From Candidatus Omnitrophota bacterium (lineage in GTDB: Bacteria > Omnitrophota > Gorgyraeia > Zapsychrales > Fredricksoniimonadaceae): DNA of 51,082 nt. Where the stretch lies: positions 1-51,082 of the forward strand of contig JACQCF010000028.1 of NCBI GenBank assembly GCA_016201795.1, in the 5' to 3' direction. Shown piece after piece: positions 5,045-8,514 of this stretch. Position 1 is the stretch's first letter; each line of letters opens with the position of its first letter. The translations under genes were made by a program, and so were the position numbers. Below the pieces are notes generated by a model, which saw nothing but the letters and a program-made list of their open reading frames with translations, was not told where the DNA came from and ran no database searches.

Positions 5045-6274
5045 ATGAAAAGAATGAATTTGATTTTACTTATTATTTTAACAGGCGCACCCCTGACGGC
5101 GCTGGCGGCCCAGGGCGTTGTGACCCCGCCGGTTTTTGTTTTTACCCAAACCAGCGGTTTGGGTAAAGACGAAACGCAGTTAAAAAATGACGTGCTTAAT
5201 CAAGAGCGCGCCAACCGCGATGCGGAAATTGAGGCCAGGAATTTAGCCGAAGAAAACGTCAAGATCATAGACACCTTTGCCAACTATGAGAACTTCCGTC
5301 AATTAAAAACGGTTTTATTGAATTACGGCCGTAAGCTGGATGAACGTAATCGCAAGCTCATGGCGCGCAATGAAGAAACCATCGTTTTAAGAAACCGCAT
5401 TGAAAAACTCGAGCACCTTTTTGATGCAGTTATTAAACTTAACAGCGACGTGGAAGTCATCAAGGTCGCCTCGGGCATCGCGGCGTCGCAGGATCAAAAA
5501 AATTTTTTGATTTTCAAAAACAGGTCTCTGGTTGAGAAATATAAGCAGCTTTTGGATTTTAAAGCTCAGCTGGCGCGTACGAAAGAAGAGCTGCAGAAGG
5601 CCCAGCATCGTTATCAAGCATTGCTGGCGCAGAATAACGCCGTGCAGCCACCATCGCAAGAATTATCTAAAATCAATGACCATTTAAAATCTCAAACAGC
5701 ATACCTGGAACAATACCAGATGTCTTTGCAGGACAAAGACAGCCGCATCGGCGCTCTTAACACTACCGTCAAGCATTTAACCGCACAAGTGGCCAATTTA
5801 GAGCAACAGCTTCAAGGGCAAAAATATCAGTCCGCGCAGTTATCCGCCATGCTGGATGTGTATCAGCAAAGAATCAGCAACAAAAATGCCGATGATCAAG
5901 AGTCGGCCGCTCTTCAAGAGAGGCTGACGGTGGCTGAAGCAAAACTCAAAGTTTCCGTTGATCAAAGCGAGCTTAAGAACACTAAAGAACTTCTGAAAGC
6001 CTCCAGCGTTGAGGTGTCCTCCCTGAGGAATTCTTTGAAAGAGAAAGATGATCAAATTCAACGGTTGAAAAAACAGAGCACACACGACGATAGCCCGCAG
6101 AGGATGAATATATCCAGAGCAAGATTCAAAAACCTCCTAGAAGACTTGTATTTTAAAGACAAACAAATTGAGCGTTTGAAAAAGCAGATGGCCCAAAAAG
6201 ACCGGACGCTGGTGATAGCCCAACGGCAGCTTAAAGCGATCAAAGAACAGCTCAATCAAACCACCCTTCCATAG
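5045..6274 (+). CDS. Secreted/periplasmic coiled-coil protein
   Basis: Signal peptide MKRMNLILLIILTGAPLTALA; long heptad-rich K/E/Q/L sequence. Confidence 0.8.
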   Translation: MKRMNLILLIILTGAPLTALAAQGVVTPPVFVFTQTSGLGKDETQLKNDVLNQERANRDAEIEARNLAEENVKIIDTFANYENFRQLKTVLLNYGRKLDERNRKLMARNEETIVLRNRIEKLEHLFDAVIKLNSDVEVIKVASGIAASQDQKNFLIFKNRSLVEKYKQLLDFKAQLARTKEELQKAQHRYQALLAQNNAVQPPSQELSKINDHLKSQTAYLEQYQMSLQDKDSRIGALNTTVKHLTAQVANLEQQLQGQKYQSAQLSAMLDVYQQRISNKNADDQESAALQERLTVAEAKLKVSVDQSELKNTKELLKASSVEVSSLRNSLKEKDDQIQRLKKQSTHDDSPQRMNISRARFKNLLEDLYFKDKQIERLKKQMAQKDRTLVIAQRQLKAIKEQLNQTTLP

Positions 6275-6797
6275 GATTTTCTTTATCCAGGTGCCATTGT
6301 CGGGGATTTTCATTGATATATTGACGGACGGCATATAGGGATTCTTCATTACGGATGATGTGCTCGTAATAATTGCGTTGCCATAATTTCACACCGGGTG
6401 TGTTACGTATTTTATTAATCAATTTGGTTGTTTTATATTTAAAATATGCGATTATTTTACCCAAGGTAATTGTCCGTAGGGGCGGGGTTCCCCCGCCCAT
6501 TGCCATAGGGCCGGGTGACCCGGCCCCTACGGCGGAATTATCAATAACAATAATTCCATGCACATGATTTGGCATAACCACGAACGCATCAATATCTATC
6601 GGGTAATGAATGGGTAATTCCTTCCATATTGATTCCACCATACGTCCGGCATCATTCAATAATATTTGACCGTTCATAATTTCCCCCAATAATGGGATAC
6701 GATCTTTAACACAAACGGTCACAAAATAATATCCATTTTGGCTATAATCCCAATCTTGCAATCGTAGGTTTTTACGACGACGCATATTATTTCTCAT
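6252..6797 (-). mobile_element. REP-associated tyrosine transposase (RAYT, IS200-like Y1_Tnp)
   Basis: RRKNLRLQDWDYSQNGYYFVTVCVKDR...DAFVVMPNHVHGIIVI (HUH motif) and candidate catalytic Tyr in RNEESLYAVRQYINENP; start likely at the internal MRRRKN. Confidence 0.9.
6474..6532. repeat. GTAGGGGC-type palindromic (REP-like) element inside the RAYT ORF
   Basis: ccgtagggg...cccctacgg terminal inverted repeat; inner hairpins ggcggggttcccccgcc and gggccgggtgacccggccc. Confidence 0.9.
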
Positions 6798-8320
6798 TAT
6801 CCCATCCGATCCAATGCGCGGTAGCTGATGGCCTCGGCGATGTGAGCGGTTTGGATCTCTTGGTATCCGGCCAAATCCGCGATGGTGCGGGCTGTTTTAA
6901 GAATTTTGTCGTGACCCCGCGCTGAGAACCCCAGCGTTTCAATAGCCTTCTTTAAAAGTTCTTCTGCCCGGGCATTAAGATTACAGAATTCTTTAAGTTG
7001 GCTGCTTGTCATTTGCGCGTTGGTATGGACAGAGCCTTTGAAACGCCGGTGCTGAAACTCTCGGGCAGCGACGGTGCGCTTTTTGATATCCAAAGAACTT
7101 TCCATCGGCAGGTGGGTAAGAAGCTCACGGGCTTTAAGCGACGGCACCTGCAGGTGAATGTCGATGCGGTCTAACAAAGGGCCTGAGATTTTGGCTAAAT
7201 ACCGTTGAATATCAAGGGCGGAACACTGGCAGGGTTTTTGGGCGCTCATCAGCCATCCGCACGGGCAGGGGTTCATGGCCGCCACCAGCATAAAGCCGGC
7301 GGGAAAACGCAACGACCGATGGGCGCGTGCCACCGTCACACAAAGGTCTTCCATGGGCTGACGCAGCACTTCCAGTACATGGCGGGAGAACTCTCCTAGC
7401 TCATCCAAAAACAGCACGCCGTTATGCGCCAAGGTGACCTCACCGGGTTTAGGATTAGATCCACCGCCGACCAGGGCAATATTCGAGGCGGTATGATGCG
7501 GCGAGCGAAACGGGCGGGCGGTGACGATACCGGTTTGATTTTTGATAAGCCCCATCACCGAATGGATTTTGGTAGTTTCCAGCGCTTCCGTTAAAGTCAT
7601 GTCCGGCAAAATCGTTGGCAGGCGTTTGGCCAGCATGGTTTTGCCGCTTCCCGGCGGGCCGATCATGAGCACATTATGTCCGCCAGCTGCGGCAATCTCG
7701 AGGCCTCGTTTGACATGGATTTGTCCTTTGACATCCGCAAAGTCCATGCTGTAGCGGCGGTTTCCAGTCAGCAAAGAAGCGCTGTTGGAAGCCGTTGGTT
7801 TGATGCTCTCTGGAACACAGAGGAAATGAACAACTTCTTTGAGGTTTTGGACGGGATAGACATTCACACTGTTGGCTAAAGCTGCTTCTTGGGCATTCTC
7901 CGTCGGTACAATCAACCCTTGAAAAATTTTAGGATCACAAGCCAAGGCGATGGGTAAGGCGCCGTTAATTGGCCGGATATGCCCGTCTAAGGCCAGCTCT
8001 CCTAGAAAAGCATAAGCGCAAAGCGCTTGGGCAGGAATTTGGTTATCACAACCTAAGACGCTTAAGGCAATGGCCAAATCAAAGGCCGGCCCTTCTTTTT
8101 TGATATCTGCCGGCGCTAAATTGATGGTGATACGCCCGCCCGGGAAGGTGAAACCACTGTTTTTGATAGCCAGCCTCACCCGTTCACGGCTTTCTTTGAC
8201 CGCATTATCGGGTAGACCCACGATGGTCATCATGGGAAGGCCGCTGGTGATATCCGCTTCAATGATCAGCGGATAAGCCTCCAGTCCACTCAAGGCAAAA
8301 CTAACAGCTTTGGCGAGCAT
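6797..8320 (-). CDS. comM: YifB/ComM family Mg chelatase-like AAA ATPase
   Basis: Starts MLAKAVSFALSGLEAYPLIIEADITSGLPMMTIVGLPDNAVKESRERVR; Walker A GPPGSGKTMLAKRLP; NPCPCG. ORF opens to 8485, but the homology start is the ATG at 8320. Confidence 0.95.
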   Translation of the reverse strand: MLAKAVSFALSGLEAYPLIIEADITSGLPMMTIVGLPDNAVKESRERVRLAIKNSGFTFPGGRITINLAPADIKKEGPAFDLAIALSVLGCDNQIPAQALCAYAFLGELALDGHIRPINGALPIALACDPKIFQGLIVPTENAQEAALANSVNVYPVQNLKEVVHFLCVPESIKPTASNSASLLTGNRRYSMDFADVKGQIHVKRGLEIAAAGGHNVLMIGPPGSGKTMLAKRLPTILPDMTLTEALETTKIHSVMGLIKNQTGIVTARPFRSPHHTASNIALVGGGSNPKPGEVTLAHNGVLFLDELGEFSRHVLEVLRQPMEDLCVTVARAHRSLRFPAGFMLVAAMNPCPCGWLMSAQKPCQCSALDIQRYLAKISGPLLDRIDIHLQVPSLKARELLTHLPMESSLDIKKRTVAAREFQHRRFKGSVHTNAQMTSSQLKEFCNLNARAEELLKKAIETLGFSARGHDKILKTARTIADLAGYQEIQTAHIAEAISYRALDRMG

Positions 8321-8383
8321 ACGAGAATTAAAATATGGGGAAGTTAGAGGTAAATTTTGCTGCTCTCTTGGGGAGAGAAAGTC

Positions 8384-8439
8384 CGCCAAAATGACTTTGT
8401 CATTTTGGCGAGATTTCACCAAGCCAACAGCTTGGTGAA
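8384..8439. repeat. Two adjacent perfect hairpins upstream of comM
   Basis: cgccaaaatgac-ttt-gtcattttggcg (8384-8410) and ttcaccaagc-caaca-gcttggtgaa (8415-8439). Confidence 0.85.
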
Positions 8440-8514
8440 CAATCCTTGCTTTTTGGGGGAGCAAAGATATAATGAAGGCTAACATATTTGGCCTTTTTCG
8501 TCAACATTATTAAG

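Follow-up and report, generated by a model that had tools for sequence, protein, structure and literature searches.

An inverted pair of REP sequences in frame within a RAYT gene of a Candidatus Omnitrophota bacterium, and covariation of REP stems with a predicted RAYT helix

Introduction

REP sequences located inside the genes of RAYT (TnpA_REP) transposases have been described for one subclass of these enzymes. Quentin et al. (2018, PMC6006769) place REPs in frame within the tnpA_REP gene of subclass 2.4, between the HuH and Y motifs, and describe them as double-foot REPs; the same report equates subclass 2.4 with group 4 of Bertels et al. 2017 and records flanking REPs within about 1 kb in the large majority of its members, where they are not stated to be obligatory. 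In-frame palindromes are also tolerated in other coding genes, including those of tRNA synthetases, as exemplified by intragenic GTAG/CGTC REPs and the Rickettsia palindromic elements (Di Nocera et al. 2013, PMC3733652). For another RAYT group, the recognition of perfectly palindromic REPs was posed as an open question, and a DNA-binding helix was proposed without a structure; the equivalent helix of Escherichia coli TnpA_REP touches its REP, and the same was speculated for another group (Corneloup et al. 2021, PMC8266576).

Here, we describe a RAYT gene with an internal REP pair in a stretch of 51,082 nucleotides (the window; contig JACQCF010000028.1 of assembly GCA_016201795.1) from a Candidatus Omnitrophota bacterium, and we compare it with related genes from many phyla.

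Results

The RAYT gene (6252..6797, minus strand) encodes a protein of 181 residues with a predicted Y1 HUH transposase fold, as judged from the ORF, profile matches, and an AlphaFold2 model (mean pLDDT, 88). The protein matches PF01797 (E=6e-8) and NF047646, the REP-associated tyrosine transposase profile (NCBI's REP_Tyr_transpos; E=3e-19). The latter match is broken into two stretches, and its 69.5 bits lie under the 80-bit cut-off, which is a naming threshold and not a defining biological feature. The best PDB matches of the model are IS608 TnpA (Foldseek E 2e-7), ISDra2 TnpA, and 4er8, the E. coli TnpA_REP bound to REP (E 4e-7). The gene has the features of class 2 TnpA_Y1 (RAYT) enzymes, namely the HUH motif, a single Tyr in a Y---NP context, and the Y1 transposase fold. 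The codons for N-H78-V79-H80 (HUH codons at 6558..6566, minus strand) and for Tyr160 (6318..6320, minus strand; in YINENP, the class 2 Y---NP signature) flank the element described below, and both are invariant across an alignment of 48 sequences; the original prediction, that the HUH motif and the catalytic Tyr are intact on either side of the element, was thus correct.

Between the HUH strand and helix alphaC lies a variable loop (residues 86-111; 6465..6542, minus strand) that is predicted to be disordered by its low pLDDT (blocks of 51 and 68). It is followed by alphaC itself (residues 112-131; 6405..6464, minus strand), our candidate for the part of the protein that reads the REP stem. 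The fold is shared with E. coli TnpA_REP (subclass 2.2, PDB 4er8), as is the W-Q...E-H..R region, which contacts GTAG in 4er8 and with which the conserved W139, Q140, and R149 align; helix alpha3 of the E. coli enzyme, the counterpart of alphaC, contacts the REP stem and bulge. Unlike the window RAYT, however, the E. coli enzyme has no described internal REP, acts with bulged REPs present in many copies, and contacts GTAG with its C-terminal tail. The window ORF stops 21 residues past Tyr160, with no conserved domain beyond the core.

Upstream of the RAYT gene is a gene for a ComM/YifB-like ATPase (6797..8485, minus strand; named from its sequence only). The RAYT start shares one base with the stop codon of this gene (TAATG, 6795-6799), and the RAYT gene is therefore probably cotranscribed with it; the overlap suggests that the two may also be translationally coupled. 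A PADLOC search gave no matches.

The element at positions 6474-6532 encodes residues about 89-108 of the RAYT and is translated in its frame as AVGAGSPGPMAMGGGTPPLRT. The DNA is strongly palindromic, with arms of 25 nt (84% complementary) around a centre of 9 nt, and it folds better than all of 200 shuffles (z = -3.5). The two best hairpin arms sum to 17, and the terminal 25-nt arms match at 21 positions; when the loop was recoded synonymously 300 times, the corresponding maxima were 14 and 19. Because the observed pairing surpasses all 300 recodings, the palindrome exceeds what the peptide forces, and a chance palindrome was rejected. An in-frame palindrome with two inner hairpins had been predicted here, and the arms, the folding score, and the recoding control bear this out. 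The earlier description as a single 59-bp palindrome holds for the DNA but has to be revised as to the nature of the element, which is made up of two inverted REPs, each of them complete.

REP 1 (6509..6530, minus strand) lies on the RAYT sense strand and reads GTAGGGGCCGGGTCACCCGGCC(C), with the hairpin GTAG-GGGCCGGG-TCA-CCCGGCCC. REP 2 (6476..6497, plus strand) lies on the opposite strand and reads GTAGGGGCGGGGTTCCCCCGCC(C), with the hairpin GTAG-GGGCGGGG-TTC-CCCCGCCC. Each has a perfect 8-bp stem and a 3-nt loop and exactly matches the stem-family pattern given below. The arrangement resembles a REPIN or BIME in that two inverted REPs are joined by a short spacer; unlike in those elements, the two stems differ at one inner pair (CGGG versus GGGG), and each is still perfectly paired. 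REPs of this type follow the double-foot form GT[AG]G ... C[TC]AC, as GTAGGGGC...GCCCCTAC in the RAYT gene and as GTAGGGGC...GCCC[C/G]TAC in copies elsewhere.

Pattern searches of the same genome with GTAGGGGC-NRGG-TYN-CCYN-GCC (at most 3 mismatches) gave 16 forward and 16 reverse matches, compared with 2 and 0 for the reversed pattern, which corresponds to about 14 places outside the two REPs of the RAYT. Exact counts of GTAGGGGC...GCCCCTAC fall short of the true family size because most copies end in GTAC. With a GTAG foot, a hairpin, and multiple dispersed copies, the family has the properties of REPs, so that the element was rightly taken for a REP of the kind on which RAYTs act, sited inside a RAYT gene, and its confinement to this one locus is contradicted by the genome-wide count.

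One dispersed copy, a REP pair of 52 bp, is located in frame in the leucyl-tRNA synthetase gene leuS (G000:C20:12470-12521; L034 2071-2122) and is read as YVGAGLPRLPDGEATSPLR. The same leuS loop carries a REP of another stem (GAACGGCCGTTC) in genome G011 and no REP in 20 other relatives. Nearly all of the remaining copies sit between codirectional genes. In 13 of 14 dispersed copies the GTAG foot falls between -4 and +5 nt relative to the stop codon upstream, and in four the stop codon is the REP foot itself (GTAG or GTAA). REPs of this genome at stop codons are L209, L214, L216, L218, L222, L226, L228, L230, L232, L233, L235, and L237; the operons concerned include dprA/topA, gyrB/gyrA, ilvB/ilvN, yajC/secD, and trxA/panD, as identified by sequence. 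There is also a consistent strand asymmetry: most dispersed copies (L209-L238) have the form GTAG...GTAC with a TGA or TAA loop on the coding strand, and the RAYT-internal REPs are GTAG footed with TCA and TTC loops.

The window RAYT fits subclass 2.4 in several features: an in-frame REP in the variable insertion between beta3 and alphaC, double-foot REPs of the GT[AG]G...C[TC]AC form, and a missing C-terminal extension. As in that subclass, its relatives are scattered over phyla. It differs from most members in its lack of a nearby flanking REP: a hairpin scan that overlooks some REPs whose arms reach past the foot found none within 800 bp of either this RAYT or its paralogue.

The paralogue, a second RAYT of the same genome (G000:C8; 47% identical), carries GTAGGGGCGATTAATAATCGCCCCTAC in frame at the equivalent loop, and its REP (GATTATTAATC) has a stem other than that of the window REP. 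For a wider view, 111 RAYT genes were sampled from the window's relatives, from its phylum, and from a GTDB-wide scan over many phyla by record title; because resemblance to the window protein guided both their retrieval and their ranking, the frequencies below do not hold for all RAYTs. At least 85 of the 111 genes have a footed hairpin between the HUH and W motifs, whereas shuffles give an expectation of 2.1 genes. The count is a lower bound, since the stricter scan behind it demands GTRRG and overlooks GTAGAG feet, with which palindromes are present in six further genes (L042, L046, L101, L111, L149, and L154). Footed hairpins are concentrated in the loop and alphaC (114 in 20.8 kb); the N-terminal core has 5 in 21.9 kb, and the C-terminal core has none in 10.3 kb. 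The original prediction regarded an internal REP as an exception; instead, it is a published hallmark of subclass 2.4, and the loops of the sampled relatives likewise carry palindromic DNA and not a shared peptide without it.

The foot is read as GTA-GGG (frame 0) in 60 cases, as xGT-AGG (frame 1) in 13, and in the frame that reads TAG in 0. The use of two frames, the occurrence of REPs both singly and in pairs, and the variety of stems together point to repeated insertions. Four relatives (L045, L048, L054, and L055) have a short or absent loop and no REP insert, and some relatives are truncated or have one stop. Individual genes show further arrangements. The RAYT ORF of L053 (genome G044) has, besides the in-frame REP of the usual loop, a second one in a loop near residue 43, before HUH, and in L049 (G014) and L159, half a REP is tandemly duplicated in frame in the loop (SKPALMQ x4; RAGLE-type repeats). 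Genome G003, of the same genus, has 23 double-foot palindromes of several stem types and at least four RAYT genes or fragments, among which L060 is apparently frameshifted just past its internal REP pair.

The internal REP tends to be of the same type as the other REPs of its gene. In 38 of the 45 genes that have both, the internal and the flanking REPs share a stem (a match being an edit distance of at most 4 of 22 nt), and 3.1 matches are expected from the flanks of other genes. Further copies of a gene's own internal stem exist in 14 of 23 genomes (permuted mean, 3.2; maximum, 9; stems transcribed by hand), and no further copy was found in the other 9. By these sequence comparisons, the REP within the gene is a cognate one.

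Across 82 genes, how far two internal stems differ tracks the distance between the 21-residue alphaC segments (Mantel r, 0.42; permutation maximum, 0.11) much more closely than distance in the N-terminal part (0.17) or in the part from W to Y (0.22). The alphaC correlation remains at 0.39 when the N part is controlled, whereas that of the N part drops to 0.08, not significant, when alphaC is controlled; such Mantel-type tests only partly remove shared ancestry. A sliding profile peaks at residues 112-135 and is about 0 over the HUH motif and the catalytic helix. Nearest-neighbor assignment from residues 114-130, which are not REP encoded, places 53 of the 82 genes in the correct stem class, compared with 28 from the N part and 4.7 by chance. 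The best-covarying columns, 122, 114, 121, and 118, all lie on one helix face. Genes identical at these four positions share the stem in 35 of 53 pairs (overall, 5.8%; random C-terminal quadruples, at most 23%), a share that is somewhat optimistic because the positions were picked from the data used for scoring.

Several pairings of helix and stem can be read from the genes. A K-x3-Y-FK-MN helix pairs across phyla with the AATTCATGAATT stem, S-x3-G-FK-IG with AT-rich GAAAnnTTTC, A-x3-Q-FK-SI with GACCC/GGGTC, and E-x3-[GQ]-FK-TF with GGTTT/AAACC; the class of the window RAYT, [KNQ]-x3-Y-FK-Y, pairs with GGGG and GAGG stems with T-Y-N loops. Prediction of the flanking stem for genes without an internal REP was mixed: good for L095, L135, and L138, fair for L045, L054, L055, L118, and L175, and poor for L048 and L081, while L106 of the same set has no true flanking REP.

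Discussion

We favor the reading that a RAYT gene of the subclass 2.4 type here harbors an inverted pair of its cognate REPs, that its product binds, cuts, and moves REPs, and that copies in its own loop survive when they are in frame (probability, about 0.82). Under this reading, the RAYT would bind a GTAG-footed hairpin in single-stranded DNA, its predicted own substrate being single-stranded GTAGGGGCCGGGTCACCCGGCCC. The foot would be read by the W139-Q140...R149 region and, as we infer from the covariation, the stem by helix alphaC; Tyr160 and the HUH metal site may then cut and join the hairpin, so that REPs move. Copies that land in the RAYT's own gene would persist if in frame in the disordered loop between the beta-strand and alphaC. 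Elsewhere in the genome the same family is present at the stop codons of operon genes and, in frame, in the leuS loop. Self-insertion, one of the origins first proposed for the internal REP, is plausible, and we infer RAYT-driven insertion into a permissive loop. The missing flanking REP, which sets the window RAYT and its paralogue apart from a typical REPtron, counts against our reading, as do the genomes without a further copy of the internal stem and the NF047646 score below its cut-off.

There is about an even chance that the internal copy itself is inert. Any in-frame REP in a disordered loop would then be tolerated, and the RAYT gene would often be hit only through its nearness to the enzyme and the REPs. 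This alternative concerns the function of the internal copy and refines the favored reading without contradicting it. Such tolerance agrees with the in-frame REP in the equally variable leuS loop and with the REP of another stem at that loop in G011, with the intragenic REPs published for many unrelated genes, with the existence of insert-free RAYTs, and with the predicted disorder of the loop; pure decay, however, should often leave broken palindromes, and the presence of perfect palindromes at a single site in most of the sampled relatives, along with the match of stem and helix, requires constant reinsertion or selection. In most relatives the pairing is perfect even though the stems have diverged, which slightly favors continual renewal or selection.

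That the internal site is itself selected is possible but rather doubtful. The internal copy would keep a substrate with the enzyme when the gene is transferred horizontally or its flanking REPs are lost, or self-binding would limit expression. Cognate identity and recurrence across phyla are in keeping with this, and neither the window RAYT nor its paralogue has a REP nearby other than the internal one, but insert-free relatives retain flanking REPs. We also advance, tentatively, the wider idea that each RAYT gene of this class is self-contained, holding both a reader and its target: alphaC (114, 118, 121, and 122) would read the stem, and selection would maintain the in-frame REP, keeping the enzyme matched to its substrate and letting the two move as a unit. 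If so, the gene pool would amount to a natural catalogue of which protein recognizes which hairpin, readable gene by gene.

It is improbable that the covariation of stem and alphaC merely reflects shared ancestry or the linkage of adjacent sequence. The loop and alphaC adjoin in the DNA, and genes are inherited whole; yet within the top decile of N-part similarity the stem is shared in 72% of pairs if alphaC is similar and in 3.5% if it is dissimilar, and below the median the shares are 64% and 1.5%. The upstream HUH segment, equally adjacent, lacks covariation, but it also varies less than any other part, and the assignment from residues 114-130 succeeds with no REP-encoded positions. Lastly, although the insertion sits in coding sequence and defective genes occur among the relatives, the proposal that it marks the start of decay, as an inactivating insertion, is very unlikely given the open frame, the retained HUH, Tyr160, W139-Q140, and R149 residues, the perfect hairpins, the well-folded model, and the in-frame inserts of most relatives.

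In-gene REPs have been known since 2018. As far as we found in the literature, the cognate match of the in-gene REP and the covariation of its stem with alphaC are new, the latter link having no mention in the available part of Quentin et al. (PMC6006769); they provide a testable hint at how the repeats are read. The covariation supports, for subclass 2.4, the idea of a contact between helix and REP (PMC8266576), and it suggests how RAYTs choose their targets, singling out a handful of residues relevant to REP preference. Whereas the host genes of the intragenic REPs of Di Nocera et al. (PMC3733652) are unrelated to the element, the host here is its presumed enzyme. RAYTs with an internal REP combine enzyme and substrate in one gene in many phyla, and their in-frame REPs are not to be taken as marks of pseudogenes.
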